From IMG/VR virus record IMGVR_UViG_3300029319_008427, positions 1 to 48,856 of that record: a stretch of DNA of 48,856 bases; one strand, written 5' to 3'. The first letter of the stretch is position 1, and each line of letters begins with the position of its first letter. Of the stretch, positions 1,900-48,854 are shown one piece after another. The position numbers and the translations under genes are program-made. This stretch comes from a virus. Under the pieces are notes generated by a model. That model was not told the DNA's origin. It saw nothing but the letters and a program-made list of their open reading frames with translations, and did not search any database.

Positions 1900-2632
1900 G
1901 GAAAGCATTCTCCAGAGGTGCAAGAAGAATAACGATAAATATGACTTTTTAGACAGTGTAATTCCTAAAGAGGGAATGGTGTTAGCTGGGGAAATACTTT
2001 TGTTCTCTGCTATATGTGACCTCTATAAAGTAGAATGTATTATTGAAAGCGGATTGTATCATGGTATATCAACAAAAATGTTAGCAGATTATTTTACAAA
2101 CAAAAAGATAATATCAATTGATATAGACATCCTACCTGAAACTAGGAAGTTGTTTGAGAACTATGAAAACGTTACCTTAATTGAAGGCGATGGCGCAACT
2201 GAGGTTCCAAATGCTATCTTAGAGGCAAAAGAAAAAGGATTAAACAGGCTCGCTGTATTTATAGATGGACCAAAAGGTAAGAGTCAAATATCGCTAGCTA
2301 AAAACATACTTCAAGATGTTGAATTTGTCGCTATGCATGATTTAGGTAAAACTTTTAGTGCTGGAATGAAGGATATTACAAATTCTAATGAATATGAAGA
2401 ACTTAACAAGCATTTTTTAGGTAACTACATTTTATCCACAGAGTCTTGGTATAAAGATAAATTTTCATTCTTAAATCTGGAGCAAATGAGATGGCTTCAA
2501 AATAGTTCTGATCATAGGTGGGAAAACAGAAACGATGGATACGATCAAGCTTTGTGGAATCCAATATTAGAGAGTATAACACCTGAAGGTTTTGGATTAG
2601 CCGCAGTATCAAAATATGGAGTGGATATTTAA
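1886..2632 (+). CDS. Class I SAM methyltransferase-like protein
   Basis: A 248-residue protein with a Rossmann-like beginning: IIESGLYHGIST (motif I position), then IISIDIDI (acidic end of strand 2) and LIEGDGA (motif II position), then AVFIDGPKG. This layout is that of small-molecule class I methyltransferases of the Methyltransf_24 or cephalosporin-hydroxylase-like type. Motif I lacks the canonical GxGxG, so SAM binding is inferred. The proposed start is TTG at 1886 with GGAG at 1872; no upstream ATG in frame is available and the next ATG would remove the first 30 residues. It lies between the two halves of a transketolase, so it is likely part of the same sugar pathway, perhaps methylating a sugar hydroxyl. 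Function is uncertain. Confidence 0.55.
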   Translation: MRLNKESILQRCKKNNDKYDFLDSVIPKEGMVLAGEILLFSAICDLYKVECIIESGLYHGISTKMLADYFTNKKIISIDIDILPETRKLFENYENVTLIEGDGATEVPNAILEAKEKGLNRLAVFIDGPKGKSQISLAKNILQDVEFVAMHDLGKTFSAGMKDITNSNEYEELNKHFLGNYILSTESWYKDKFSFLNLEQMRWLQNSSDHRWENRNDGYDQALWNPILESITPEGFGLAAVSKYGVDI

Positions 2633-3115
2633 ATGAGCGTTAGAAAAACATTTGTTAGCCTGTTGCACGAAGAGATGAGAGAGAACAACAATATTATATT
2701 TGTTGTCGGTGACTTGGGATATGGTCACTTTGATCAAATTCGTGAAGAGTTTCCAGATAGGGTCATCAACCCAGGTGCAGCAGAACAGTTAATGATGGGA
2801 ATGAGTATTGGATTAGCTCAGGAGGGTAAGCTTGTGGTATGTTATTCCATGACGCCATTCACACTGTATCGCCCATTTGAGTTCATTAGAAACTACGTTG
2901 ACTACGAAAAGATTCCAGTCAAACTTATTGGTGCTGGTCGAGATAAAGACTATCTTTGGTTAGGTTGGTCGCATTGGGCGACTGATGACAAAGAGCACCT
3001 TAGTGGTTTCAAAAACATAGAGAAGCATTGGCCAGAAGACCCTGAAGACATGAGACGCTTATTCAGGCACATCATGTATAATGGAAAGCCGACTTACGTT
3101 AATTTGTCGAGGTAA
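2633..3115 (+). CDS. Transketolase pyrimidine-binding half, lacking the C-terminal domain
   Basis: A 160-residue protein matching only the pyrimidine-binding (Pyr) domain of transketolase. It has VVGDLGYG near the start and NPGAAEQLMMGMSIGLA, where the Glu aligns with the catalytic Glu of the family 'GIAEQ.M.G.A.GLA' that activates the thiamine ring. A later segment DYLWLGWSHWATDD corresponds to the family region with G...GxTH. Ordinary C-terminal subunits are about 300 residues and carry a third domain; that domain is absent here. The Pyr domain pairs with the PP domain at 1246 in known enzymes, so the two proteins should form one active site. The start directly follows the previous TAA. Confidence 0.8.
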   Translation: MSVRKTFVSLLHEEMRENNNIIFVVGDLGYGHFDQIREEFPDRVINPGAAEQLMMGMSIGLAQEGKLVVCYSMTPFTLYRPFEFIRNYVDYEKIPVKLIGAGRDKDYLWLGWSHWATDDKEHLSGFKNIEKHWPEDPEDMRRLFRHIMYNGKPTYVNLSR

Positions 3116-3117
3116 AC

Positions 3118-3900
3118 ATGGACATTGATCTGATCATACAAGGACCTGTTGATGGAGATAATTTATTTTTAAAAAAGATGGATATCCTTTGCGAACAGTT
3201 TAACAAAGTAATTATCTCTACTTGGAGCGGGGAAAATAAAGACTGGCAAGATCAACTTAAAAAATATCCTAACGTAGAAGTAACTTCTGTTGATCTGCCC
3301 CCACGCCCAAGCGAAAAAAATCCACGCCCTGGCATTGTTAATGATTCAACATTTTATTGGGCATGTTTATCGACTTATAATGGATTAATAAAATCGACAG
3401 CAGAATATATTATAAAGATGAGAAGTGATGAATATTATGAAAGCTTTTCACTAATCAAAAAAGAGCTTAATAAAGGCAGAGGTAGGTCAGTTGAAAAATT
3501 TGCTTTTGGTAATATATTCTACAGAAAGCACTTTGAGGGTGGACCTTATCATATAGGAGACCATGTATATGGTTGCAAGAGAGAATATATCCTTAATGGA
3601 TTAAAAGAAGCCCTAGATTATTATGATGAAAAGAATACAGGTGAATATATTGAATTCAAGCAGGACGTAGATCAGCACTACCACTGTGCAGAGGTTGTTT
3701 TAGCACATATGTTTTTGCTTGGGGCAGGAATACCTAGAAATGAGTGGTATGAACATACCCACTATGGCTTTACAATTTTTAATAAACATTTTAAAGTTAT
3801 TGACATAAATCGGCTTGGGGACTATCAAGCATCTTGGGCCGCCGCTGGGAAAACTTTTGACCCCAGGAACAACATTTTTATCGCTGGCTCAGAGTTATAA
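3118..3900 (+). CDS. WavE-like glycan synthesis protein (copy 2)
   Basis: A 260-residue WavE-like protein: LIIQGPVDGD at the N terminus, VIISTWSGE, the central IIKMRSDEYYES, FGNIF, and YHIGDHVYGCKRE. The C terminus HFKVIDINRLGDYQASW aligns with the end of the gene at 249, which confirms paralogy. It is nearer in length to typical WavE members than copy 1. The start ATG follows GAGGT at about 3108. It is followed directly by the sulfotransferase gene, which suggests the glycan it builds is the one that is sulfated (inference). No membrane segment is seen. Confidence 0.7.
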   Translation: MDIDLIIQGPVDGDNLFLKKMDILCEQFNKVIISTWSGENKDWQDQLKKYPNVEVTSVDLPPRPSEKNPRPGIVNDSTFYWACLSTYNGLIKSTAEYIIKMRSDEYYESFSLIKKELNKGRGRSVEKFAFGNIFYRKHFEGGPYHIGDHVYGCKREYILNGLKEALDYYDEKNTGEYIEFKQDVDQHYHCAEVVLAHMFLLGAGIPRNEWYEHTHYGFTIFNKHFKVIDINRLGDYQASWAAAGKTFDPRNNIFIAGSEL

Positions 3901-5401: not shown

Positions 5402-5836
5402 ATGTTGTTAGTTTCACATAGGGGTAACCTTTTTGGACCAGATGATGTGGGAGAGAATCATCCTACTAAAATAGCTGATGTTATTAATCAGGGGTTTGAT
5501 GTAGAAGTGGATGTGTGGTCTATTGACAACAAGCTTTATCTAGGTCATAATAAACCAACACACTTTATTACTACGGATTTTTTATTGCACTCAAATATTT
5601 GGTGTCATGCAAAAAACATAGAAGCTTTAGAACATATGTTGAATGTGGGGATACATTGCTTTTGGCACGAGTCTGACAACTATACACTAACAAATAATGG
5701 GTTTATTTGGACTTACCCAGGTAAACAACTTACTCCTAAGTCTGTTATAGTGTGTCACACTAAAGAGGAAACAGGAAAAGTAACAACTACTAACGCTTAT
5801 GGTGTCTGTAGTGATTATGTGGGGTATTATAAATGA
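5402..5836 (+). CDS. GDPD/PI-PLC-fold phosphodiesterase-like protein
   Basis: A 144-residue protein starting LLVSHRGN, with G.NHP at residues 17-21 and a FDVEVDVW strand at 32-39, then LYLGHN and WCHAKN. These match the beginning of glycerophosphodiester phosphodiesterase-like TIM-barrel proteins (HRG, then E-V-D metal ligands, then GHD). It is much shorter than a full GDPD (about 240) and ends after the WTYPGK segment, a length I associate with a compact phage and environmental subfamily (from memory). It may cleave or transfer glycerol-phosphate groups on a lipid or glycan, but activity is unproven. The stop overlaps the next start (ATGA). Confidence 0.55.
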   Translation: MLLVSHRGNLFGPDDVGENHPTKIADVINQGFDVEVDVWSIDNKLYLGHNKPTHFITTDFLLHSNIWCHAKNIEALEHMLNVGIHCFWHESDNYTLTNNGFIWTYPGKQLTPKSVIVCHTKEETGKVTTTNAYGVCSDYVGYYK

Positions 5837-6786
5837 AGATAGTAGCAGTGACAGGATGTATGGGGCTGATAGGCTCACACGTTACAAGTGAGTTGCTCCA
5901 GCGGGGTTATCTAGTGCTCGGTATTGATAAGCTAACTTATGCTGCCAACAGTGAAGCAATGCAAACCTTCAATGGTTTACCAGGGTTTACTTTTTTGCAA
6001 AAAGATATTTGTGAGTTAGAATCTATCCCTGATTGCGACTACGTTATCAACCTAGCAGCAGAGTCTCATGTTGGTAACAGTATCATTGACGGTACAGATT
6101 TTATCAACACGAATATTAGTGGTGTGCAAAATTTGCTTAAGATTATTCAAAATAAACCAAGCAATGTTTGCGAAAGACCTGTGCTCCTTCATTTTAGCAC
6201 AGACGAGGTATATGGGGATCTAGAAGAGGGTTCGTTTACAGAAGATAGTTCCTTAAATCCTAGTAACCCTTATTCGGCCACCAAAGCAGCCGCAGATCAC
6301 TTGATAAAGTCTTGGAGTAGGACATATGGAACAGAATATATTATTGTCCGTCCAACAAACAACTACGGGATATTCCAATACCCAGAAAAACTTATCCCCT
6401 TATCAGTAAAATTATTACAAAGAGGAAAGAAGATTAGACTCCATAACAAAGGCGAGCCCACAAGAAACTGGCTGCACGCTGCTGATACTGCAAATGCGAT
6501 TATCACTATTATGGAGTCGGGTGTAAAAAATGAAATTTTCAACATATCTGGTGGTTTTGAGCAAAAAAACATCGATACAGTAAAGAAGGTAATAGACTGT
6601 TACTTTGAAGAAAAAATAGAAGATTATGATCAATACCTTGACTTTTCTTATGAGCGTGAAGGGCAAGATGTCAGATACTCAGTAGATGACAGTAAGTTGA
6701 GAAAACTAGGCTGGAAACCAAAGTTTAATTTTGATGAAGAGATAAAGCATATTGTAAAGCATTATAGGAAAACATTCGTATGGTAG
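5833..6786 (+). CDS. rfbB: dTDP-glucose 4,6-dehydratase-like NAD-dependent sugar epimerase/dehydratase
   Basis: A 317-residue extended short-chain dehydrogenase. The NAD-binding GCMGLIG is at residues 8-14, STDEVYG at 122-128, and the catalytic YSATK at 147-151. DEVYG (Asp-Glu used for dehydration) and RPTNNYG.FQYPEKLIPL are typical of RfbB-type dTDP-D-glucose 4,6-dehydratases, which make the 4-keto-6-deoxy sugar that leads to rhamnose and other deoxysugars. Length fits (about 320-350). The gene overlaps both neighbours by a few bases. No partner epimerase or reductase for rhamnose is visible nearby, so the final sugar is unclear; another nucleotide sugar as substrate is possible. Confidence 0.8.
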   Translation: MKIVAVTGCMGLIGSHVTSELLQRGYLVLGIDKLTYAANSEAMQTFNGLPGFTFLQKDICELESIPDCDYVINLAAESHVGNSIIDGTDFINTNISGVQNLLKIIQNKPSNVCERPVLLHFSTDEVYGDLEEGSFTEDSSLNPSNPYSATKAAADHLIKSWSRTYGTEYIIVRPTNNYGIFQYPEKLIPLSVKLLQRGKKIRLHNKGEPTRNWLHAADTANAIITIMESGVKNEIFNISGGFEQKNIDTVKKVIDCYFEEKIEDYDQYLDFSYEREGQDVRYSVDDSKLRKLGWKPKFNFDEEIKHIVKHYRKTFVW

Positions 6787-6986
6787 CAAAGAAAAGACAC
6801 TTAGCCAAAGCAATAAGTTGGAGAGTGATAGGCACCCTTGATACAATGTTATTGGGTTGGATTATCTCAGGTGATCCAATGGTAGGAGTAAAGATTGGCG
6901 CAGTTGAATTAGTAACAAAGATAATTTTGTATTATGGTCACGAACGAGCATGGTATAGATTCTCTAGATTTGGAGTAAAAAAATGA
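6780..6986 (+). CDS. DUF2061 small membrane protein
   Basis: A 68-residue protein with the DUF2061 pattern: basic start (AKKRHLAKAISWRVIGTLDT), one hydrophobic segment around residues 20-35 (TMLLGWIISG), then VGVKIGAVELVTKIILYYGHERAW. DUF2061 proteins often sit next to or are fused with sulfate-assimilation genes such as APS kinase, and here the APS kinase gene follows with a four-base ATGA overlap. It is presumably in the inner membrane, but its molecular role is unknown. The start overlaps the end of the dehydratase gene by 7 bases. Confidence 0.8.
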   Translation: MVAKKRHLAKAISWRVIGTLDTMLLGWIISGDPMVGVKIGAVELVTKIILYYGHERAWYRFSRFGVKK

Positions 6987-7930
6987 CAAGCAATTTACAC
7001 TTTCATGGTGCGACGGTATCGACGGAAGAAAAAACACTAAAAAATAAACATAAACCCGCAGTACTATGGTTTACAGGATTATCTGGGTCGGGCAAGTCTA
7101 CATTAGCAAATGCGGTAGAGACGCTGCTGTTCCGAAAAGGATATCAAACCCACACCCTTGATGGGGATAATGTGAGGATGGGACTTAATAGTGATCTTGG
7201 CTTTTCTCCCGATGACAGGGCAGAAAACATTAGGAGAATTTCTGAGGTGGCTAACCTGATGCGCCAGTCAGGTACAATAGTTTGTACTGCATTCATTTCA
7301 CCTTATCGTAAAAGCAGAAAATTTGCAAGAGAAATTATTGGCAAAGATTTTATTGAGGTGTATGTCAAAGCCCCGCTCAAAACTTGTGAAGCTAGAGATC
7401 CAAAGGGTTTATATAAAAAAGCAAGGAGCGGAGAGATACCAAACTTTACTGGTATTAGTGCGCCGTATGAAAAGCCAAGAAGACCAGAGATCACGGTTGA
7501 TACGGCAGAGCACAGTGTAGAAGAATGTGCTAGTCATATCGTTGAGTACCTAGAGACGAATGGATATTTCTCCACCGTAAATGAGGTCAATGTATTGGAT
7601 AAGAAAAGAACAATCGCCATTGATTTTGACGGGGTAATTCACAAATACAGTGAGGGTTTTAAAGGCTTGATGAATGCATATGACGATCCTATGGATGGTG
7701 CGGAGGCAGCATTCAATGTGCTGAAGGACGCTGGTAAAAGACTTGTTATCCTTTCATCCCGACCATCGTCTGTGATTGAGGGCTGGCTGGAAGAAAGAGG
7801 ACTAAAAAAATACTTTGATGAAGTCTCTAATTTTAAGATACCTGCTAGCATCTATATTGATGATCGAGCTTACAAATTTAGAAACTGGAAAGATACTGTT
7901 AAAGACTTACTAGAAGGAGAAGATCGATGA
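6983..7930 (+). CDS. cysC: APS kinase (CysC) fused to a HAD-family phosphatase
   Basis: A 315-residue two-domain protein. Residues about 20-195 are adenylylsulfate kinase: Walker A GLSGSGKST at 32-40, DGDNVR at 60-65, ENIRR at 81-85, FISPYR at 104-109 and the lid region KGLYKKAR. This domain phosphorylates APS to PAPS. Residues about 205-315 are a small HAD phosphatase: nucleophile motif DFDGVIH at 214-220, ILSSR at 256-260 (motif II Ser), K285, and YIDDRA at 291-296 (motif IV acids). Neither half is truncated. CysC is normally fused, if at all, to ATP sulfurylase, so a HAD partner is unusual. The gene sits between DUF2061 and a nucleotidyltransferase with ATGA overlaps on both sides and would feed the sulfotransferase at 3901. 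Confidence 0.9.
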   Translation: MTSNLHFHGATVSTEEKTLKNKHKPAVLWFTGLSGSGKSTLANAVETLLFRKGYQTHTLDGDNVRMGLNSDLGFSPDDRAENIRRISEVANLMRQSGTIVCTAFISPYRKSRKFAREIIGKDFIEVYVKAPLKTCEARDPKGLYKKARSGEIPNFTGISAPYEKPRRPEITVDTAEHSVEECASHIVEYLETNGYFSTVNEVNVLDKKRTIAIDFDGVIHKYSEGFKGLMNAYDDPMDGAEAAFNVLKDAGKRLVILSSRPSSVIEGWLEERGLKKYFDEVSNFKIPASIYIDDRAYKFRNWKDTVKDLLEGEDR

Positions 7931-8325
7931 GCAGAAGAGCTATGTTTATTGGACGATGGCAACCATTCCACAACGGACATAAATGGTTAATGTCTCAAAA
8001 GCTAGATGAGGGTTTGCCAATTTTGATCTGTGTTAGGGACATCCCACCAGATGAAAAGAATCCATTCACTACTGAGCAGACAGTGAAAATGCTAGAAAAA
8101 GCATATGAAGACGATGATGTTATTGTTATGGCCATTCCAGATATTGACTCTGTAAACTATGGTCGAGGTGTTGGGTACGGTATCATTGAGCATGTCCCGC
8201 CTAAAGACATTGGGTTTATATCGGCAACTGATATCAGAAACAAGATCAAAGATGGTGATAATTCATGGAAGCAGAACGTTGATGAAAAAATCCACGACCT
8301 TGTAGTGAAATATCTTAGCGAGTAA
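7927..8325 (+). CDS. Short HxGH nucleotidyltransferase (NMNAT / cytidylyltransferase-like)
   Basis: A 132-residue protein with GRWQPFHNGH at residues 9-18 (the HxGH nucleotide-binding motif) and ISATDIR at 98-104 (the ISxTxxR motif), the two signatures of the nucleotidyltransferase superfamily that includes NMN adenylyltransferase, phosphopantetheine adenylyltransferase and ATP sulfurylase. At 132 residues it is close to the minimum for the fold. ATGA overlap with the APS kinase suggests a linked step. It might be an NMN adenylyltransferase for NAD, a cytidylyltransferase for a sugar, or a minimal enzyme making APS; the last is speculation from context only. The fold assignment is strong, the substrate is open. 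Confidence 0.8.
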   Translation: MSRRAMFIGRWQPFHNGHKWLMSQKLDEGLPILICVRDIPPDEKNPFTTEQTVKMLEKAYEDDDVIVMAIPDIDSVNYGRGVGYGIIEHVPPKDIGFISATDIRNKIKDGDNSWKQNVDEKIHDLVVKYLSE

Positions 8326-8327
8326 GA

Positions 8328-9314
8328 ATGTTATTAATAACATACGGCACAAGACCAGAGTACATTAAAGTGCTTCCTGTGATTAATGAAATGAAAAAAC
8401 GGCAAATGCCGTATAAGACTTTCTTTACGGGGCAGCATACTGACTTACTTAGCAAGGCAGAAAAACCAGACCACATCTTATCAATTGAAGATGGACCTAA
8501 CAGGCTAGACTCTATTGTGCAATCAATATTAAACAAAGAAGAAATATTTGACGATATAAGGTGTGTGATGGTACAAGGTGATACGTCATCTGCTTTTGCT
8601 ACAGCCTTGGCAGCCTTTCATAGAAAGATACCAGTAGCACACTTAGAGGCAGGACTTAGGACATATGATAAATACAGTCCTTACCCAGAGGAGTTTAATA
8701 GGTGTGCTATTTCAGCATTAGCTGAGATACACCTTTGCCCAACAACTACATCAGCATCTAACCTTGAAAAGGAAGGACGCAAGAATGTTCATGTAGTTGG
8801 TAATACGGTGTTGGATAATTTACTTGATGTTGAAACCACTGAAACTAATAAAGTTATTGTAACTCTTCATCGGCGAGAAAAACATGATAAAATAAAAGAT
8901 TGGTTCCTTACAGTCAACCAACTAGCAACCAGATATAATGATTTAGAATTTGTGTTGCCAATACACCCTAACCCTGCGGTCAAAAAACATCAGCACTTAT
9001 TATCTAACGTTACAGTTGTAGATCCTATGGAGCATAATCAATTCATATCAGAGTTGGCAGCATGTAAATATATTATTACAGACAGCGGTGGTGTACAGGA
9101 AGAGGCAGCCTTCCTTAAGAAGCCCTGTATTGTGTGTCGAGATTTTACGGAAAGAGTAGAAGGACTAGGGACCTTCTCAGTATTATGTGCGTCGCCAAAA
9201 GAACTGTTTGGCTTAGTAGATTGGGCCACGGGGATTAACCTAGATTATAAACAATGTCCCTATGGTGATGGAAGATCATCACAATATATTTGTGATTTAC
9301 TAAACAATATTTAA
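8328..9314 (+). CDS. wecB: UDP-N-acetylglucosamine 2-epimerase (non-hydrolysing type)
   Basis: A 328-residue GT-B-fold protein with TYGTRPE near the N terminus, MVQGDTSSAFA, HLEAGLRT, PEEFNR, TLHRREKHD and ITDSGGVQEEA, all family motifs of WecB, which converts UDP-GlcNAc to UDP-ManNAc. It is somewhat shorter than bacterial WecB (about 375), mostly through loops and a short C terminus. It begins three bases after the previous stop and is the last gene of the glycan cassette. UDP-ManNAc would be a precursor for surface polysaccharides. Confidence in family is high, and in the exact product moderate. Confidence 0.88.
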   Translation: MLLITYGTRPEYIKVLPVINEMKKRQMPYKTFFTGQHTDLLSKAEKPDHILSIEDGPNRLDSIVQSILNKEEIFDDIRCVMVQGDTSSAFATALAAFHRKIPVAHLEAGLRTYDKYSPYPEEFNRCAISALAEIHLCPTTTSASNLEKEGRKNVHVVGNTVLDNLLDVETTETNKVIVTLHRREKHDKIKDWFLTVNQLATRYNDLEFVLPIHPNPAVKKHQHLLSNVTVVDPMEHNQFISELAACKYIITDSGGVQEEAAFLKKPCIVCRDFTERVEGLGTFSVLCASPKELFGLVDWATGINLDYKQCPYGDGRSSQYICDLLNNI

Positions 9315-19958: not shown

Positions 19959-20360
19959 TTGCCAAAAGTAGGAATTTCCCCAGCATTACCGTTAGCATAT
20001 ACTAAAGAGGATGGACCCTACGGGTTGAATAAAACTATTAGAGATTCGATTCAGCAGAATTTTAAAAACCTTCTCTTAACCACAAAGGGGGAAAGAGTTA
20101 TGATACCAGAATTTGGCGTAGGGCTTCGTTCATTCTTATTTAGGAATTTTACAACTTCCCTTCTAGAAGAAATTAGAGCGGAGATTAATAGACAAGTGGC
20201 GATATATCTTCCGTTTATCGAAATTACAGAATTAGATTTTCTAACCTCAGACGAGCAACCAGACGATATAGGGCTAAATCAGATCAATCTAAGAATAAGG
20301 TATGAAATTCTACCAATAAACGAGGCGGATACGCTTACTATATTTGAATCGGCAAACTAA
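19959..20360 (+). CDS. 25: gp25-like baseplate wedge protein
   Basis: A 133-residue GPW/gp25-family protein with LPLAYTKEDGPYGLNKTI, then TTKGERVMIPEFGVGLRSFLF and a helix of Arg/Glu, all family traits (G.R...PEFG..L). Length equals that of T4 gp25 (132). The start is TTG at 19959: it has an AGGAG Shine-Dalgarno at 19946-19950 and there is no upstream ATG, so TTG is probably genuine. gp25 is part of the wedge and touches the sheath initiator in T4. It is followed by gp6, as in other T4-like phages. Confidence 0.88.
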   Translation: MPKVGISPALPLAYTKEDGPYGLNKTIRDSIQQNFKNLLLTTKGERVMIPEFGVGLRSFLFRNFTTSLLEEIRAEINRQVAIYLPFIEITELDFLTSDEQPDDIGLNQINLRIRYEILPINEADTLTIFESAN

Positions 20361-20386: not shown

Positions 20387-22174
20387 ATGGCTAAAAGACC
20401 AGTGAATTATGTCAGTCGTGACTTTGAAAGTATAAAACAATCATTAATCGACCATGCAAAACGTTATTATCCCGACACTTTTAAAGATTTTAACGAGGCT
20501 TCATTTGGTGCTTTAATGCTGGATGCTGTGTCATATATTGGCGACAACTTATCATTCTATGTTGACTACCAGGCAAATGAAAGCTTCTTAGATAGTGCGC
20601 TGGAAACAGATAATATAAATAGAATTGCTCGTCAAATGGGCTATAAGCAGACAGGCACAACTGCCACAGAAGGCATATTAACAATATACATTCTTGTCCC
20701 TGCCGCAACAACGGCCAGAGGACCAGATCCTGAGTATATGCCGATAATGAAAAAAGGAAGCACTTTTAATTCTGACGCTTCGGGTGTTTTTACGTTGCAG
20801 GAAGACGTAGATTTTTCAGATCCCTCTAACGAAGTGGTGGTGGGTCGTGTTGACGAGAATACTGGCGATCCGACGTATTATGCAATTAAGGCTAAAGGCA
20901 GAGTTATTTCAGGAGAACTAAACCAAGAAACATTTTCCGTTGAGGAATATACAAAGTTTTTGCGCTTGCAGATGGAAGGATTAAACATTAGCGAAGTACT
21001 CTCGGTAACAGACTCCGAAGGAAACGAATATTTTGAAGTACCTTATTTGTCACAAAACGTTATTTATGAACAAATCGTAAATAATGCCTCAGACAAAAGC
21101 GTTGTGCCCTATAACTTAAGAATCAAGCCTGTGCCAAGAAGGTTTATGACAGATTTTATAGATGGCGAAGTCTTTTTACAATTCGGTTTTGGATCAGAGG
21201 GGAATCTTACTGGTGACTTGATAGCGGACCCTGCTGATGTAGTGTTGAATGTGCATGGTAGAAATTATGTAACCGATGATAGTTTTGATCCAAGTAATCT
21301 AATAAAAAGTGATAAGTTTGGTGTTGTTCCCACGGACACAATTCTAACAGTAATATATCGATCAAACAGCACTGATACTGCAAATGCAGGAGTTAATACA
21401 ATAACAACTCCTGGGTCGATAAATCTAGTTTTTAAAAATACAAATTCTTTAGACATCAACATCACCAACTTTATAGAGTCATCGATAGAAAGCACTAATG
21501 AGTCAGCAATAATTGGTGACGTCTCAGCCCCAACACAAGAAGAGATAAGAATGAGAGCTTTTGATTCGTTTGCTTCACAGAACAGAGCGGTAACAAAGCA
21601 GGATTACATTGCGTTGTGTTATCGTATGCCTGGAAACTTTGGATCTATTAAACGAGCCGCTATAGCACAAGACAGAGATTCATTCAAGAGAAACTTAAAT
21701 TTGTACGTTATTTCTGAGGATCAAGACGGAAATTTTATAAATCCTCCAACTTCTTTATTAAATAATTTAAAAACTTGGCTAAATCGGTATAAAATGATAA
21801 ATGATACGATTGATATATTGCCAGGCAGAATTGTCAATCTACAAATTGATTTTGAGGTATTGACAGATTTGGAATCAAATAGATTTGATGTTATAAGTTT
21901 ATGCATTGAGCGTCTAAAAGAAGATATGGCCGTCAAAAAGAACATTGGCGAGCCATTCTATATAACTGATATATTCAAGACATTAAATAATGTCCCAGGC
22001 GTAGTTGACACTATCAGTGTTAACGTAGATACAAAGACAGCGGCTGGATATAGCCAGTTTCCATTTGATATAGAACTTAATACGAGTCCTGATGGTAGAA
22101 TTTTATATGCTCCATCTACTGTGGTGTTTGAGATTAAGGATTTTGACCAAGACGTTCAGGGGGTTGCACGATAA
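20387..22174 (+). CDS. 6: gp6-like baseplate wedge protein (Baseplate_J)
   Basis: A 595-residue protein starting NYVSRDFESIKQSLIDHAK, then FNEASFGALMLDAVSYIGDNLSFYVDYQANE, a signature of gp6 in T4-like phages. The later RMRAFDSFASQNRAVTKQDY and the C-terminal NNVPGVVDT block fit the Baseplate_J domain. T4 gp6 is 660 residues. It forms the (gp6)2-gp7 wedge heart in T4 and is therefore a core virion protein. The start has TAGGAG at 20371. It ends at 22174 in a TAATG junction with the next gene. Confidence 0.85.
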   Translation: MAKRPVNYVSRDFESIKQSLIDHAKRYYPDTFKDFNEASFGALMLDAVSYIGDNLSFYVDYQANESFLDSALETDNINRIARQMGYKQTGTTATEGILTIYILVPAATTARGPDPEYMPIMKKGSTFNSDASGVFTLQEDVDFSDPSNEVVVGRVDENTGDPTYYAIKAKGRVISGELNQETFSVEEYTKFLRLQMEGLNISEVLSVTDSEGNEYFEVPYLSQNVIYEQIVNNASDKSVVPYNLRIKPVPRRFMTDFIDGEVFLQFGFGSEGNLTGDLIADPADVVLNVHGRNYVTDDSFDPSNLIKSDKFGVVPTDTILTVIYRSNSTDTANAGVNTITTPGSINLVFKNTNSLDINITNFIESSIESTNESAIIGDVSAPTQEEIRMRAFDSFASQNRAVTKQDYIALCYRMPGNFGSIKRAAIAQDRDSFKRNLNLYVISEDQDGNFINPPTSLLNNLKTWLNRYKMINDTIDILPGRIVNLQIDFEVLTDLESNRFDVISLCIERLKEDMAVKKNIGEPFYITDIFKTLNNVPGVVDTISVNVDTKTAAGYSQFPFDIELNTSPDGRILYAPSTVVFEIKDFDQDVQGVAR

Positions 22175-44855: not shown

Positions 44856-45434
44856 ATGATATTAGGTTTAGACATATCTTCAACCATGATAGGCGTTGCT
44901 GTAATTGATGAAGACAGCAAACAACTAGTCCACTCAACAGGGTGGGATTTGTCTAAGATAGAAACAAGTTATGAAAAGTATGAGCTAATCGGCGCAGAGC
45001 TTTGTACTTTGCGTGGGGACTATGGTATAAAGTATGTTTTTGTTGAGACAGCACTAAAAAGGTTTGTCCCAGGCAGATCACGAGCAGATACGATTATAAA
45101 ACTAGCAAAGTTCAACGGAGTCGTTTCCTGGCTTTGTTATGATGTACTGATGCTAGAACCTACATTTATCAATGTCAACACGGCTCGATCACTATATGGC
45201 CTATCGTTCCCTCGAAGCACCAAAGGACCACAAAGAAAGAAGATGGTCATCGAGGCAGTCATAGAAAAAGAGAAGACCGCATTTTCTTATGAGATGGCAC
45301 GGGGCGGAAAGAACTTTAAGCGAGGAACAGATGACCGAGCGGATGCCGTTGTAATCGCACGAGCAGGTGAGTTTTTATTGCGAAACAAGGATAATAAAGG
45401 ATTCCTAACAGAAAAGATAGTTTTGACAGAGTAG
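44856..45434 (+). CDS. RuvC-like Holliday-junction resolvase
   Basis: A 192-residue RNase H-fold nuclease. LGLDISST holds the first catalytic Asp (D6), VFVETAL the Glu (E64), and TDDRADAVV the last acids (D160, D163); the spacing suits RuvC-type resolvases (about 170-190 residues). T4 uses gp49 (endonuclease VII) for junction resolution before packaging; here a RuvC-like protein probably takes this role. The gene stands after the structural module and has its own -10 element, so its expression timing may differ from its neighbours. Confidence 0.8.
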   Translation: MILGLDISSTMIGVAVIDEDSKQLVHSTGWDLSKIETSYEKYELIGAELCTLRGDYGIKYVFVETALKRFVPGRSRADTIIKLAKFNGVVSWLCYDVLMLEPTFINVNTARSLYGLSFPRSTKGPQRKKMVIEAVIEKEKTAFSYEMARGGKNFKRGTDDRADAVVIARAGEFLLRNKDNKGFLTEKIVLTE

Positions 45435-45482: not shown

Positions 45483-45785
45483 ATGAAACTCACAAAAGGG
45501 ATGATTAGGGACCTAATCAAAGAAGAAATCGAAGCTAGTTTAGAAGAAGCACCAAAGGTACCAGCACAGATTGATAGAGGCTTGGATATGGTGATGGGTG
45601 ATGGCGGCGACGAAAAAGTGCTAGCACAACTCGATAAGATGCTGGATGGTTTAGACCCACAGCGTCAGGCTGCCGCAGCACAAGCATTGCTTGCTCGTCT
45701 AGGTCTACCCGCAGACTTGAATAAGCTCAGATCAGCACTTGGTGCAGCACCAGAAGAGAAGCAAGGCGAGCAATCGGCAGAGTAA
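45483..45785 (+). CDS. Small acidic protein with type-A N-terminal tag (candidate internal head protein)
   Basis: A 100-residue acidic, Ala-rich protein. The first 16 residues (MKLTKGMIRDLIKEEI) are the type-A tag, with I12-x-E14 forming a T4-type prohead protease site (I/L-x-E). Downstream parts are helical: VLAQLDKMLDGLDPQRQAAA and ALLARLGLPADLNKLRSALG. It is the first of the tagged genes and has a strong AGGAG 7 bases before the ATG. An acidic, helical, tagged protein recalls the T4 prohead core proteins (gp67, gp68), so a scaffold or core role is possible. Confidence 0.6.
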   Translation: MKLTKGMIRDLIKEEIEASLEEAPKVPAQIDRGLDMVMGDGGDEKVLAQLDKMLDGLDPQRQAAAAQALLARLGLPADLNKLRSALGAAPEEKQGEQSAE

Positions 45786-45786
45786 A

Positions 45787-46242
45787 ATGCACAAGCTGTT
45801 TTCTACGTGGAAACAATTCCTGAATGAAGAGAAAATGTCTGATTTGGGAGGTGGAGATAAATACGTCGCCAAGGTTGGCGGCTTAAAAGTCGTTATTGAT
45901 TTAGACGATTTGGATCTACAAGCCACCAAGCATAGTAAAGAAAGACAATTTCGCCACGATAGGAAGATTTCCAACCAGGCAATTATAAGCGCAGTTGAGA
46001 TGGCTCTCGGCAAAATTATAAATGATTATGCAAATGGTGAGTTACAGAATGATGAGGCATTTCACATCAAAGCAGTCAGTAAAGCCAAATCAGTTCCTGA
46101 TCTTAATGTGATCGGCGTGCTCAACATGCAAAAGGGACCTGATACACTCAAGGTCATCACAGTTATGAGAAAAGATGACTTTAAGACTGACAATTTTGGC
46201 GGCGGACAGCAGAAGACGTATACAGTAAATCCGAGGCAGTAA
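45787..46242 (+). CDS. Protein with type-B N-terminal tag (candidate internal head protein)
   Basis: I start at ATG 45787 (151 residues), one base after the previous stop, not at the upstream in-frame GTG at 45739. The first 16 residues are MHKLFSTWKQFLNEEK: W8, K9, F11, L12-x-E14. The same positions recur in the gene at 48321. After the tag is a domain with HSKERQFRHDRKISNQAI, then a region ending LNVIGVLN and IKVITVMRKDDF-like strands (here LKVITVMRKDDF). I recall similar 'H..ER ... R.I ... ITVM' proteins in phages, possibly with a compact nuclease or toxin-like fold, but this is not established. Confidence 0.6.
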   Translation: MHKLFSTWKQFLNEEKMSDLGGGDKYVAKVGGLKVVIDLDDLDLQATKHSKERQFRHDRKISNQAIISAVEMALGKIINDYANGELQNDEAFHIKAVSKAKSVPDLNVIGVLNMQKGPDTLKVITVMRKDDFKTDNFGGGQQKTYTVNPRQ

Positions 46243-46246
46243 AACG

Positions 46247-46528
46247 ATGAAAATCACACACGACAGCCTTAGAGAACTTATACGTGAAGCAATCCTAGAC
46301 GAGAAGAAGAAAAAGCGTAAAGCTAAAAGAAAAGCGTCTAGCCGACGTAAAGCAAAGAAGAAAAAGAGACGTGTCAAGCGCAAGGCTAAGAAAGCCAAAA
46401 GAGACGCTTGCTACCACAAGGTTAAGGCACGTTATTCTGTGTGGCCTTCAGCTTACGCTTCGGGCGCTTTAGTAAAGTGTCGTAAAGTTGGCGCAGCGAA
46501 CTGGGGTGAAGGTGGTAAGAAGAAATGA
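46247..46528 (+). CDS. Highly basic histone-like protein with type-A tag
   Basis: A 93-residue, extremely basic protein. Residues 1-16 are the type-A tag (MKITHDSLRELIREAI), followed by LDE and a poly-Lys/Arg section (about 20-50, for example KKKKRKAKRKASSRRKAKK). The C-terminal domain (about 53-93) reads ACYHKVKARYSVWPSAYASG and ALVKCRKVGAANWGEG, a small Cys/aromatic module I recall from phages and giant viruses. Cleavage at I12-x-E14 would release a DNA-condensing protein, comparable with T4 internal proteins IPI-III. ATGA overlap joins it to the next, related gene. Confidence 0.65.
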   Translation: MKITHDSLRELIREAILDEKKKKRKAKRKASSRRKAKKKKRRVKRKAKKAKRDACYHKVKARYSVWPSAYASGALVKCRKVGAANWGEGGKKK

Positions 46529-46896
46529 GAATCACCAAAGACCAGCTACGGGAAATGATCAGAGAAGCACTTCTTGACGAAAAGAAGAAAAAGAAGAAGA
46601 AGAAGCGCAAGAAGAGAAAAGTAAAACGCAAGAAGCGCAAACTCACCAGTAAGCCAGGGTCAGAATCGAATCTTGGCGACTGGTTCAGGCGTAAGGGCGC
46701 ACCAGGCAAAAAAGGTGGCTGGGTTGACTGCAACGCTCCAAAATACAAAAAGGGCAAGAAAGTAGGCTATAAGTCCTGCGGTAGAGCCAAAGGAGAAAAA
46801 CGCTCCAAATATCCAGCTTGCCGTCCTACAGCCGCAGCTTGTAAGAAGCGATCAAAGAGTTGGGGCAAAAAAGCTAGAAAAGGTAAAAAAGGATGA
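46525..46896 (+). CDS. Highly basic protein with type-A tag and Cys-rich domain (DUF5872-like?)
   Basis: A 123-residue basic protein. Tag: MRITKDQLREMIREAL, then LDE and a poly-Lys/Arg stretch like that of the upstream gene, so both derive from one duplication with different C termini. Residues about 50-110 read GDWFRRKGAPGKKGGWVDCN, then YKSCGRAKGEKRSKYPACRP and TAAACKK. The WF..WVD..CGR..YPACRP signature resembles DUF5872, known from phages and giant viruses (from memory, to be confirmed by HMM). It probably binds DNA or cell components after packaging. Confidence 0.65.
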   Translation: MRITKDQLREMIREALLDEKKKKKKKKRKKRKVKRKKRKLTSKPGSESNLGDWFRRKGAPGKKGGWVDCNAPKYKKGKKVGYKSCGRAKGEKRSKYPACRPTAAACKKRSKSWGKKARKGKKG

Positions 46897-47399
46897 AGAT
46901 AAGTAAGGAAGAACTAAGAAAGATTATTAAAGAGGAAATACTCAAAGAGTCAGGACATACAGATGTCCCATCCTCTAGGGCTAATCTGTTTACTATTGTA
47001 GAAGACTGTGATGATATGCTCAAGATTTTATCGCAAGTACCTAAGCACGCCTCATTGCCAAGCTGGTGGACAAACAAGATTGCTGTCGCATCTAGCAAGC
47101 TCAATGCCTGTCGTGATTATTTGCTAACCTCTGTCGGCGGTGTTAGAGAAGAATCTATGGAAGAGTCGGATTCACTAGCCGAGAAGCAGTCAATCAACAT
47201 GAAAGAAGTTGAAATGAAAGAGGCAGTAATTATGAAGCATCTTACAGCGATGTTTGATGAACTAGGCAGAGAAGAACTGCCAAAAAGATTCTCAGAAAAG
47301 TCTTTACTAAAACCAATTATAGATCGTTACCTAGACGCTAGAAGGAATGTACGCATACCTTACTTTGATAAGTTAACAGGGAGAATGAAAAACAAATGA
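46893..47399 (+). CDS. Helical protein with type-A tag, unknown function
   Basis: A 168-residue protein. Tag: MKISKEELRKIIKEEI. The body begins with LFTIVEDCDDMLKILSQ and HASLPSWWTNKIAVASSKLN, a helical pattern ('LP.WW..KI..A...L') I recall from small proteins of phages. A second helical half (about residues 100-160) contains MKHLTAMFDELGREELPKRF. It is linked by ATGA overlaps on both sides. There is no catalytic motif. A packaged internal protein is inferred from the tag and the position in the array. Confidence 0.6.
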   Translation: MKISKEELRKIIKEEILKESGHTDVPSSRANLFTIVEDCDDMLKILSQVPKHASLPSWWTNKIAVASSKLNACRDYLLTSVGGVREESMEESDSLAEKQSINMKEVEMKEAVIMKHLTAMFDELGREELPKRFSEKSLLKPIIDRYLDARRNVRIPYFDKLTGRMKNK

Positions 47400-47710
47400 A
47401 AATATCTCAAGATGAATTAAGAAGTATTATCAAAGAAGAGATCGCCTCAGTGATTGCTGAATTTGACAAAGATAAAATGAAGTGCAATAAAAAGCGATAT
47501 ATTAGAAAAGGCGAGACTGGATACGGTAAGAAACAGAAGGTTGTCAAAGCGTGCGAGAAGGGCAAGGAAAGAATTGTCAAGTTTGGCGATGCTAAAATGA
47601 GAAATAATAGAGACAAAAAGAAAAACAGAAAGAACTTTAGGGTCCGACACAATTGTAAAAACCCTGGATCTAAATTAAAAGCAAGATATTGGGCTTGTAA
47701 GGACTGGTAA
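47396..47710 (+). CDS. Small basic protein with type-A tag and 'RHNC..PG..KARYW.C' domain
   Basis: A 104-residue basic protein. Tag: MKISQDELRSIIKEEI, followed by ASVIAEFDKDK. The body reads RIVKFGDAKMRNNRDKKKNR then KNFRVRHNCKNPGSKLKARY and WACKDW; FGD.xM..+RD...R+.F+.RHNC.NPG.K.KARYW.C is a motif I recall from many phages, some next to or within head genes. The cysteines and His might bind a metal. The start overlaps the previous stop (ATGA) and its end overlaps the next start (TAATG). Function is unknown. Confidence 0.6.
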   Translation: MKISQDELRSIIKEEIASVIAEFDKDKMKCNKKRYIRKGETGYGKKQKVVKACEKGKERIVKFGDAKMRNNRDKKKNRKNFRVRHNCKNPGSKLKARYWACKDW

Positions 47711-48150
47711 TGAAAAAGATAATCGTAAAGTGGAGAAAATTTGTTGATAGTGCTAAAAAGTATGTTTGCCCACCTGCAACACAAGATTTAGAACTCAACA
47801 CCAAGAACCGTGACGCCTCTATAAAAGCAGAACATATTCAGTACGGACCACTTAACGTAGATGAGCCAGGTGATTACTGGAAAGATATTGCCGAGTACTG
47901 GAACACAACCGAAGAGGCAGCTAAGAAATCAAATTGCAGCAACTGTGTTGCGTTTGATATTTCTCCACGAATGAAAGAATGTATGCCAGGCGAGACATCA
48001 GATGAAGATGGTGAACTAGGTTACTGCTGGATGCACCACTTCAAGTGCCACTCGGCCCGCTCGTGTCGAACATGGGCTAAGGGCGGACCAATAGATCAGG
48101 ATAAAGTATCCCACGACTGGCAGGATAGAAATAAGTTCCCAGAGGAGTAA
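47710..48150 (+). CDS. Cys-rich (possibly Fe-S) protein with degenerate type-B tag
   Basis: A 146-residue protein. The N terminus MKKIIVKWRKFVDSAKK has W8, R9, F11 and a hydrophobic residue at 12 as in type B, but position 14 is Ser, so the protease site is lost or not used. Later sections are YGPLNVDEPGDYWKDIAEYW and a Cys module with C76, C79, C91, C106, C113 and C119 (CSNCVAFD ... YCWMHHFKCHSARSC). Six cysteines with aromatic spacers recall high-potential iron-sulfur proteins, but a zinc site fits equally. It is in the tagged array, so it might be a packaged protein. Confidence 0.6.
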   Translation: MKKIIVKWRKFVDSAKKYVCPPATQDLELNTKNRDASIKAEHIQYGPLNVDEPGDYWKDIAEYWNTTEEAAKKSNCSNCVAFDISPRMKECMPGETSDEDGELGYCWMHHFKCHSARSCRTWAKGGPIDQDKVSHDWQDRNKFPEE

Positions 48151-48320: not shown

Positions 48321-48854
48321 ATGAAGCTTCTTATGGAACAATGGCGACAGTTTATAAATGAGGGCTCAAAGTTCAAGCTCAAGGGTGACTCCGAATACTT
48401 TCGTATTGACCTTCAGGGTATTGGTTATGCGCAAGGGATGCAACACCTAAGATTTAAAGAATGCCAGTCAGATGTTGACGCTCTTATGGAAACACCAGAA
48501 TTCATAAAAGCTAAAGAAAAATACGAAGCCAACAACACCACCAAAGATATGGCACAGGACGAAGACGGCAATTACTTTATGAAGGAAGTACCAGCTAAGT
48601 TCAGACCAAGATTTTATGATATAGAAAACGCATGGATCACAAACCCAGAACAAAGAGGTAAAGGGTACGGCAAAGAATTATACAAAGCATTTATCGCCCA
48701 GGCAGCAGAATACGCCAAGCCTTATGGCGGTGTGTTTGTTGGGGCTCACTACTGCACTATAGGTTCAGGAACCTCGGACGATGCCAAGAGAGTATGGAAA
48801 TCAATTACAAGGGACTACACATCATCAGGTGATGTGATATTTATAGGACTATGA
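48321..48854 (+). CDS. GNAT-type acetyltransferase with type-B N-terminal tag
   Basis: A 177-residue protein. Residues 1-16 are MKLLMEQWRQFINEGS, the type-B tag with I12-x-E14. Residues about 100-140 have the GNAT acetyl-CoA loop: IENAWITNPEQRGKGYG (Q/RxxGxG at 111-117) then KELYKAF helix and GVFVGAHY strand. The N-terminal strands are weaker than in ordinary GNATs, and the substrate is unknown. By analogy with T4 Alt, an ADP-ribosyltransferase packaged in the capsid and injected, this enzyme could be ejected with the DNA to modify a host target (inference). Confidence 0.65.
   Translation: MKLLMEQWRQFINEGSKFKLKGDSEYFRIDLQGIGYAQGMQHLRFKECQSDVDALMETPEFIKAKEKYEANNTTKDMAQDEDGNYFMKEVPAKFRPRFYDIENAWITNPEQRGKGYGKELYKAFIAQAAEYAKPYGGVFVGAHYCTIGSGTSDDAKRVWKSITRDYTSSGDVIFIGL

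Follow-up and report, generated by a model that had tools for sequence, protein, structure and literature searches.

The window, a 48,856-nucleotide stretch of viral DNA analysed as a whole and making up nearly the whole of a virus contig of 49,244 bases, carries an array of genes whose products begin with a common short sequence. This common N-terminus is very probably a propeptide for capsid targeting, of the kind known from phage T4. The tag itself, the register in which it is fixed, the swapping of tags between bodies, and a protease with a matching capsid cleavage site in related phages can be seen in the sequences, whereas binding to the prohead core, cleavage, presence in the virion and ejection are inferred from them.

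Across the window and eight contigs related to it, the tag takes two forms, class 1 (MKITKxxLKxIIKEE) and class 2 (MKxLxxxWRxFLxE), with a common frame of a hydrophobic residue at position 8, R/K at 9, a hydrophobic residue at 11, [IL] at 12 and E at 14. The first-pass annotation had described class 1 only, as an ungapped N-terminus shared by five consecutive genes ahead of unrelated bodies. The five open reading frames are real, with ATG starts on the plus strand, and the shared tag stands, with M1, R9, I12 and E14 invariant among the five; their strict consecutiveness does not, because a gene with a different tag, MHKLFSTWKQFLNE, sits at 45787-46242 between the first and the second. This second flavour, overlooked in the first reading, is present on the genes starting at 45787 and 48321, with a worn copy on the one at 47710.

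All tagged genes lie on the plus strand. The first class-1 gene (45483-45785, 100 aa; tag MKLTKGMIRDLIKEEI, codons 1-14 at 45483-45524) encodes an acidic body with a pI of 4.4 after residue 14, and is followed by the class-2 gene at 45787-46242 (151 aa, tag at 45787-45828), which has orthologs with 90-91% identity in the relatives G001 and G002. The next class-1 gene (46247-46528, 93 aa, tag MKITHDSLRELIREAI) contains a CYHKV...WPSAYASGALVKCRK module (phrog_727) in a very basic body (pI 11.2 and 9.0 kDa after residue 14), and the one after it (46525-46896, 123 aa, tag MRITKDQLREMIREAL) is also very basic, with a pI of 11.0 and a Cys-containing GGWVDC...YPACRPT module. The class-1 gene at 46893-47399 (168 aa, tag MKISKEELRKIIKEEI) has a body without a family match in Pfam or PHROG, and the last one, at 47396-47710 (104 aa, tag MKISQDELRSIIKEEI, phrog_7595), has a basic, Cys-containing body with a pI of 10.3. 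Further downstream lies a gene with a degenerate class-2 tag, MKKIIVKWRKFVDS, that has lost E14 (47710-48150), and a class-2 tag, MKLLMEQWRQFINE, opens a 177-aa protein with a weak GNAT acetyltransferase match (48321-48854). From the gene at 45483 to the one ending at 48150 the spacing is 1, 4, -4, -4, -4 and -1 nt, an operon-like packing. Three of the tagged bodies are small and basic (pI 10.3-11.2, 9-12 kDa), in which they resemble the internal proteins of T4; none of the window bodies matched an internal virion protein in Pfam or PHROG.

An AlphaFold model of the 48321 product, built from only 4 sequences, had a mean pLDDT of 67 and a helix at residues 2-14 that ends at E14; because residues 1-15 scored below 50, the tag cannot be positioned relative to the body. 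A Foldseek search with this model had no significant hit, so the GNAT assignment is supported by weak profile matches alone.

Other features of the window and of its modules were also noted. A RuvC-like Holliday junction resolvase gene (44856-45434) lies directly upstream of the tagged array, and a nucleotide-sugar cassette (5833-9314) encodes an epimerase, a kinase plus phosphoheptose-isomerase-like protein and a cytidylyltransferase-like protein. The modules of window genes 46247, 46525 and 47396 are joined in one open reading frame in G024 (2303-3427; L142:2303-3427), and those of 46247 and 46525 in Flavobacterium phage immuto (L083:11154-11651). In these fused frames several [LI]xE motifs lie between the modules, as if a polyprotein were made and then cut.

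Among the window's open reading frames the class-1 core motif occurs only at the five N-termini; a sixth six-frame match falls within a frame of 29 residues. With a pattern covering both flavours, expected counts taken from the internal motif rate, and crude gene calling, 7 E14-anchored tagged genes were found in the window where 0.01 was expected, and the excess was similar in G001 (15 against 0.19), G002 (18 against 0.16), G030 (22 against 0.28), G032 (21 against 0.31) and G027 (15 against 0.30). No E14-anchored tag was found in phage immuto (0.21 expected), Microcystis phage Mel-JY01 (0.19) or pelagiphage HTVC008M (0.26). Counted from a Met, offset 14 had 76 occurrences of the joint motif across the window and the eight contigs, compared with a median of 2 at other offsets; most of these gave 1-10 matches, offset 10 gave 11, and offset 7, where the Met is the first residue of the motif itself, gave 20. 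The selection fixes positions 8, 9, 11, 12 and 14, leaving the other positions, the register and the residues beyond 14 as independent evidence. The class-1 DNA pattern was matched by at least 120 stretches of a viral collection, compared with 6 in all for the reversed pattern. The register, the reversed-pattern control and the control genomes exclude chance or composition as the source of the tags.

A few examples of a third flavour, MKLLREYIRELLxE, likewise end at E14, and arrays of it (MKLLREYIRELLxE or MKHLRQYIRxIL.E, again with E14) lie at L219:600-1672 and L468:3661-7831. A tblastn search of the consensus tags against 50,697 phage genomes gave no convincing match and one insignificant one, which is a weak test with such short queries. 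Six tag strings were not found in the literature that was searched, and this does not prove their absence.

Conservation is confined to the tag. An alignment of 103 class-2 proteins gave the consensus MKLLxENWRxFLxE and hardly anything beyond it, and 84 aligned class-1 proteins showed the same pattern; tag positions outside the selection held 2.4-2.5 bits of information, against 0.38-0.55 bits over residues 15-40. A propeptide-like N-terminal stretch of 10-20 residues common to proteins with unrelated remainders, as seen here, is what characterizes capsid-targeting sequences of the T4 type. Moreover, the same body can be found with different tags. The CYHKV...WPSAYASG body of gene 46247 has a class-1 tag in the window, G001 and G002 and a class-2 tag in G017 (90% identity over 41 residues), and a 5'-nucleotidase has a class-2 tag in G025, a related N-terminus in G016 and no tag in G001 and G002. 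The CPPATQDLEL body of gene 47710 is untagged in G014, and its class-2 tag is intact in G001 and G024 but worn in the window and G002. A 40% identical homolog of the GNAT-like 48321 protein, in L219, bears the third flavour (MNLLREYIRELLTE), and each of the three flavours is found on a small VGDVxLxGRFKNKR protein. A tag-mixed cluster that groups L328 with coiled-coil proteins is probably spurious and was left out of this evidence.

The T4 prohead protease gp21 cleaves after L/I-X-E (PMC9026906), and the earlier reading of I12-x-E14 as its consensus holds, with [LI]-x-E at the tag end and E14 in both flavours. In the T4 internal proteins IPI, IPII and IPIII the capsid-targeting sequences are known (Mullaney and Black 1996, reviewed in PMC9026906); IPIII relies chiefly on residues 4 and 7 for targeting and on residues 8 and 10 for processing, and IPIII with D at position 10 is reported to be packaged uncut (PMC9026906). 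Y4, F7, I8 and E10 of IPIII (MKTYQEFIAE) align with W8, [FY]11, [LI]12 and E14 of class 2, and T4 gp24 (MAKINELLRE) aligns with class 1, its aliphatic pattern I..LLRE fitting at each position. Hydrophobic residues of the targeting type thus stand three apart, at positions 8 and 11, as W and [FY] in class 2 and as L and [IL] in class 1. The frequency of these residues is not independent evidence, because both positions are in the search pattern, and it is their register and spacing that are independent. Applied to 50 kb of T4 as a positive control, a similar scan picked out E10 in IPII, IPIII and gp24, all of which bear N-terminal propeptides of this kind.

The window was placed among T4-like myophages on the basis of its baseplate wedge genes, gp25-like at 19959-20360 and gp6-like at 20387-22174 on the plus strand. 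Proteins related to the gp6-like one are found in Mel-JY01, immuto and many uncultivated contigs; in the close relatives G001 (174.6 kb) and G002 (146.7 kb) it is 87% identical. We saw no protease or capsid gene in the window contig, which is a fragment; the relatives encode T4-like gp17, gp20, gp21, gp22-like and gp23 proteins. The gp21-like protease that the earlier proposal called for in related phages was found as an S77 protease in G001, G014, G022, G024 and G025; it matches Peptidase_S77 (PF03420; E 2e-27 in G001) and conserves H85 and S140 of T4 gp21, which we take to be the catalytic residues. In large contigs chosen by the tag only, PF03420 was above the cut-off in 22 of 24, and those 22 also had Gp23. 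Random contigs had S77 in 2 of 15 and tags in none; they were mostly smaller, so there is no size-matched control for the 22 of 24. At the position of the T4 gp23 cleavage, all 28 Gp23 proteins of the relatives have [LIV]-[RKS]-E; the T4 cut lies between FLTE and A, and one example from the relatives is KELLREAS, much like the class-1 core RELIREA.

A small conserved gene follows gp21 at L084:14521-14889 in G001 and also in G014, G022, G024 and G025. Its product opens with a class-1-like helix (MKKSQLKELIKECVREVVFEEG, KPLIKECIKEVIFEEG) in a different register, and one possibility is a core protein of the T4 gp67/gp68 sort; it could even be a partner of the tag.

The tagged phages seem to be mostly marine, as inferred from their relatives and from metagenome context. 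The genome_contigs collection also gave at least 118 stretches that match the tag, and most of the single matches look like chance. A bacterial origin of the tags was considered and rejected, as the bins with multi-match contigs (Halobacteriovorax, Methylococcaceae) also contain an S77 protease, and the tag-bearing contigs in these bins are probably phage contigs, since the same assemblies hold the protease. GTDB bins with tag arrays and S77, namely L478 and L504 (binned with Halobacteriovorax SP2999) and L468 (Methylococcaceae TMED69), may give a hint of hosts.

Class 1 shows a further [LI]xE beyond the tag. In 157 class-1 proteins whose bodies are not homologous, a residue at 19-23 was E at a rate of 0.46 if L or I stood exactly two residues before it, against 0.11 otherwise, a fourfold difference (OR 6.8, p = 5e-18), and L/I one or three residues before it had no effect in these proteins. 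The spacing effect was absent at residues 30-60 of the same proteins and in class 2, and was much weaker in other ORFs (OR 1.5). About half of the class-1 proteins, 106 of 213, have another [LI]xE between residues 17 and 26, among them all five in the window, where, in addition to E14, it ends at E22 (LEE before A), E19, E19, E19 (LKE before S) and E22 (IAE before F) in gene order. The working cleavage site of class 1 may therefore often be at the second [LI]xE, at residues 19-23, with cleavage itself being inferred. T4 internal protein propeptides are 10 to 19 residues long (PMC9026906). Because of this possible cut, mature N-termini need not begin at residue 15, and the earlier prediction was widened.

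Three other explanations of the shared N-terminus can be considered. The tag could be a docking helix for some other assembly, such as the tail, the baseplate or an intracellular complex, with [IL]xE being incidental; the window array lies just downstream of tail and baseplate genes, and similar amphipathic helices start a few other structural genes, for example immuto 81525 beside baseplate genes. Against this stand the match with T4 propeptides at the functional positions, the [LIV]xE found in these phages at the position of capsid cleavage, the spacing-specific second [LI]xE, the enzymes among the cargo, and a further array that lies apart from the first in G001 (53 kb) and G002. We regard a docking helix of this kind as unlikely.

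Less likely still is a single paralogous family with diverged bodies, whose N-terminus would be the last recognizable remnant and not a working module. Adjacent arrays of short genes do resemble tandem duplication, and class-1 tags are similar to each other, but the bodies belong to many unrelated families, homologous bodies have differing flavours or none in other phages, and conservation drops abruptly past the tag; common descent of the bodies is ruled out by the unrelated bodies together with tag exchange. That DNA is what is conserved, as a translation start or regulatory element with the peptide as a by-product, might be suggested by the position of the tags at gene starts in a tightly packed array. 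Nevertheless, residues shared between window tags are written with differing codons in 44 of 76 pairs and the upstream DNA is not common, so that conservation is at the protein level; the codon divergence rules out a DNA-level element, and hardly any weight is left for this explanation.

We return to the capsid-targeting propeptide. The first ~14 residues would form a short amphipathic helix that docks on the prohead core and carries the attached protein into the prohead, where the cargo is enclosed. An S77 (gp21-type) prohead protease would then cut after [LI]-x-E; in class 2 the cut would follow E14, and in class 1 it could fall at E14, at the second site (residues 19-23) or at both. The freed cargo would be packed with the DNA and later ejected into the host. 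Proteins that retain the targeting positions 8 and 11 and have lost E14 (window 47710-48150 and G001:165247) are predicted to be packaged uncleaved. The modular capsid-targeting tag inferred in the first-pass annotation gains support from the S77, gp20, gp22-like and Gp23 proteins of the relatives, from the cleavage site in 28 of 28 Gp23, from the one-to-one match with IPIII positions, and from the recurrence of tags on hundreds of proteins whose bodies are mostly unrelated, together with their exchange between homologous bodies. Two points were amended: there is more than one flavour, and class 1 may be cut at the second [LI]xE.

The tag has a short N-terminal propeptide, hydrophobic or aromatic positions three apart and a terminal [IL]xE in common with the T4 internal protein sequences, along with small basic proteins among its cargo and T4-type head genes in the tagged phages. 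On the other hand, 14 residues precede the cut site here and 10 in T4, a contig has 15-22 tagged proteins compared with the three internal proteins of T4, and there are at least two flavours, enzyme-rich cargo and, in class 1, the additional downstream [LI]xE. Residue 15 is usually E in class 1, whereas A follows the sites of T4 IPII, IPIII and gp23. T4 gp24 is a vertex shell protein, whereas class-1 cargo consists of varied small proteins and enzymes. Head-carried enzymes and anti-restriction proteins are also known from T4 Alt and the Dar-type proteins of phage P1, and tagged cargo has ADP-ribosyltransferase and SAM-lyase matches; sequence homology of the window cargo to Alt or Dar proteins was not shown. 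In the giant phage SPN3US many head proteins have N-terminal propeptides removed by the prohead protease, and gp53 and gp54 have identical N-termini with diverged bodies, but the propeptides are mostly much longer, some exceeding 100 residues (PMC5694885). The window proteins would thus work like internal proteins bearing a capsid-targeting sequence, whereas descent from those of T4 is not shown. In each feature examined the tag behaves as a T4 capsid-targeting sequence, in a greatly expanded variant, as far as can be judged without direct evidence of packaging and cleavage; we found no virion proteomics for tagged phages.

Most of the tagged cargo has no family match. The class-1 and class-2 cargo of the relatives that does have one includes ADP-ribosyltransferase, GNAT, Nudix, SAM lyase, protein kinase, 2H-type phosphodiesterase, nucleotidyltransferase, M23 peptidase and TseH-like families, which suit host takeover and counter-defence. 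We lean, with some reserve, toward a broader reading, in which a widespread uncultivated T4-like lineage uses an interchangeable 14-residue address code in at least two, and probably three, flavours to load at least 20 effectors per virion, among them ADP-ribosyltransferases, SAM lyases, kinases, Nudix proteins and DNA-binding peptides. Because cargo genes would gain, lose and swap tags, the injected repertoire could be read from sequence alone.

In these uncultivated, mostly marine T4-like phages, up to ~20 otherwise unrelated proteins per phage have the same short tag. The function of most phage proteins is unknown, and it has rarely been established which ones accompany the DNA into the host. 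Should the tag work as inferred, the injected protein set of a large phage group could be recognized by a simple pattern at the N-terminus. Hundreds of hypothetical proteins would become candidate effectors of counter-defence and host takeover, and there would be new packaging tags for loading phage heads with proteins. The T4 capsid-targeting principle would then extend far beyond T4, at a notable scale and with notable modularity.
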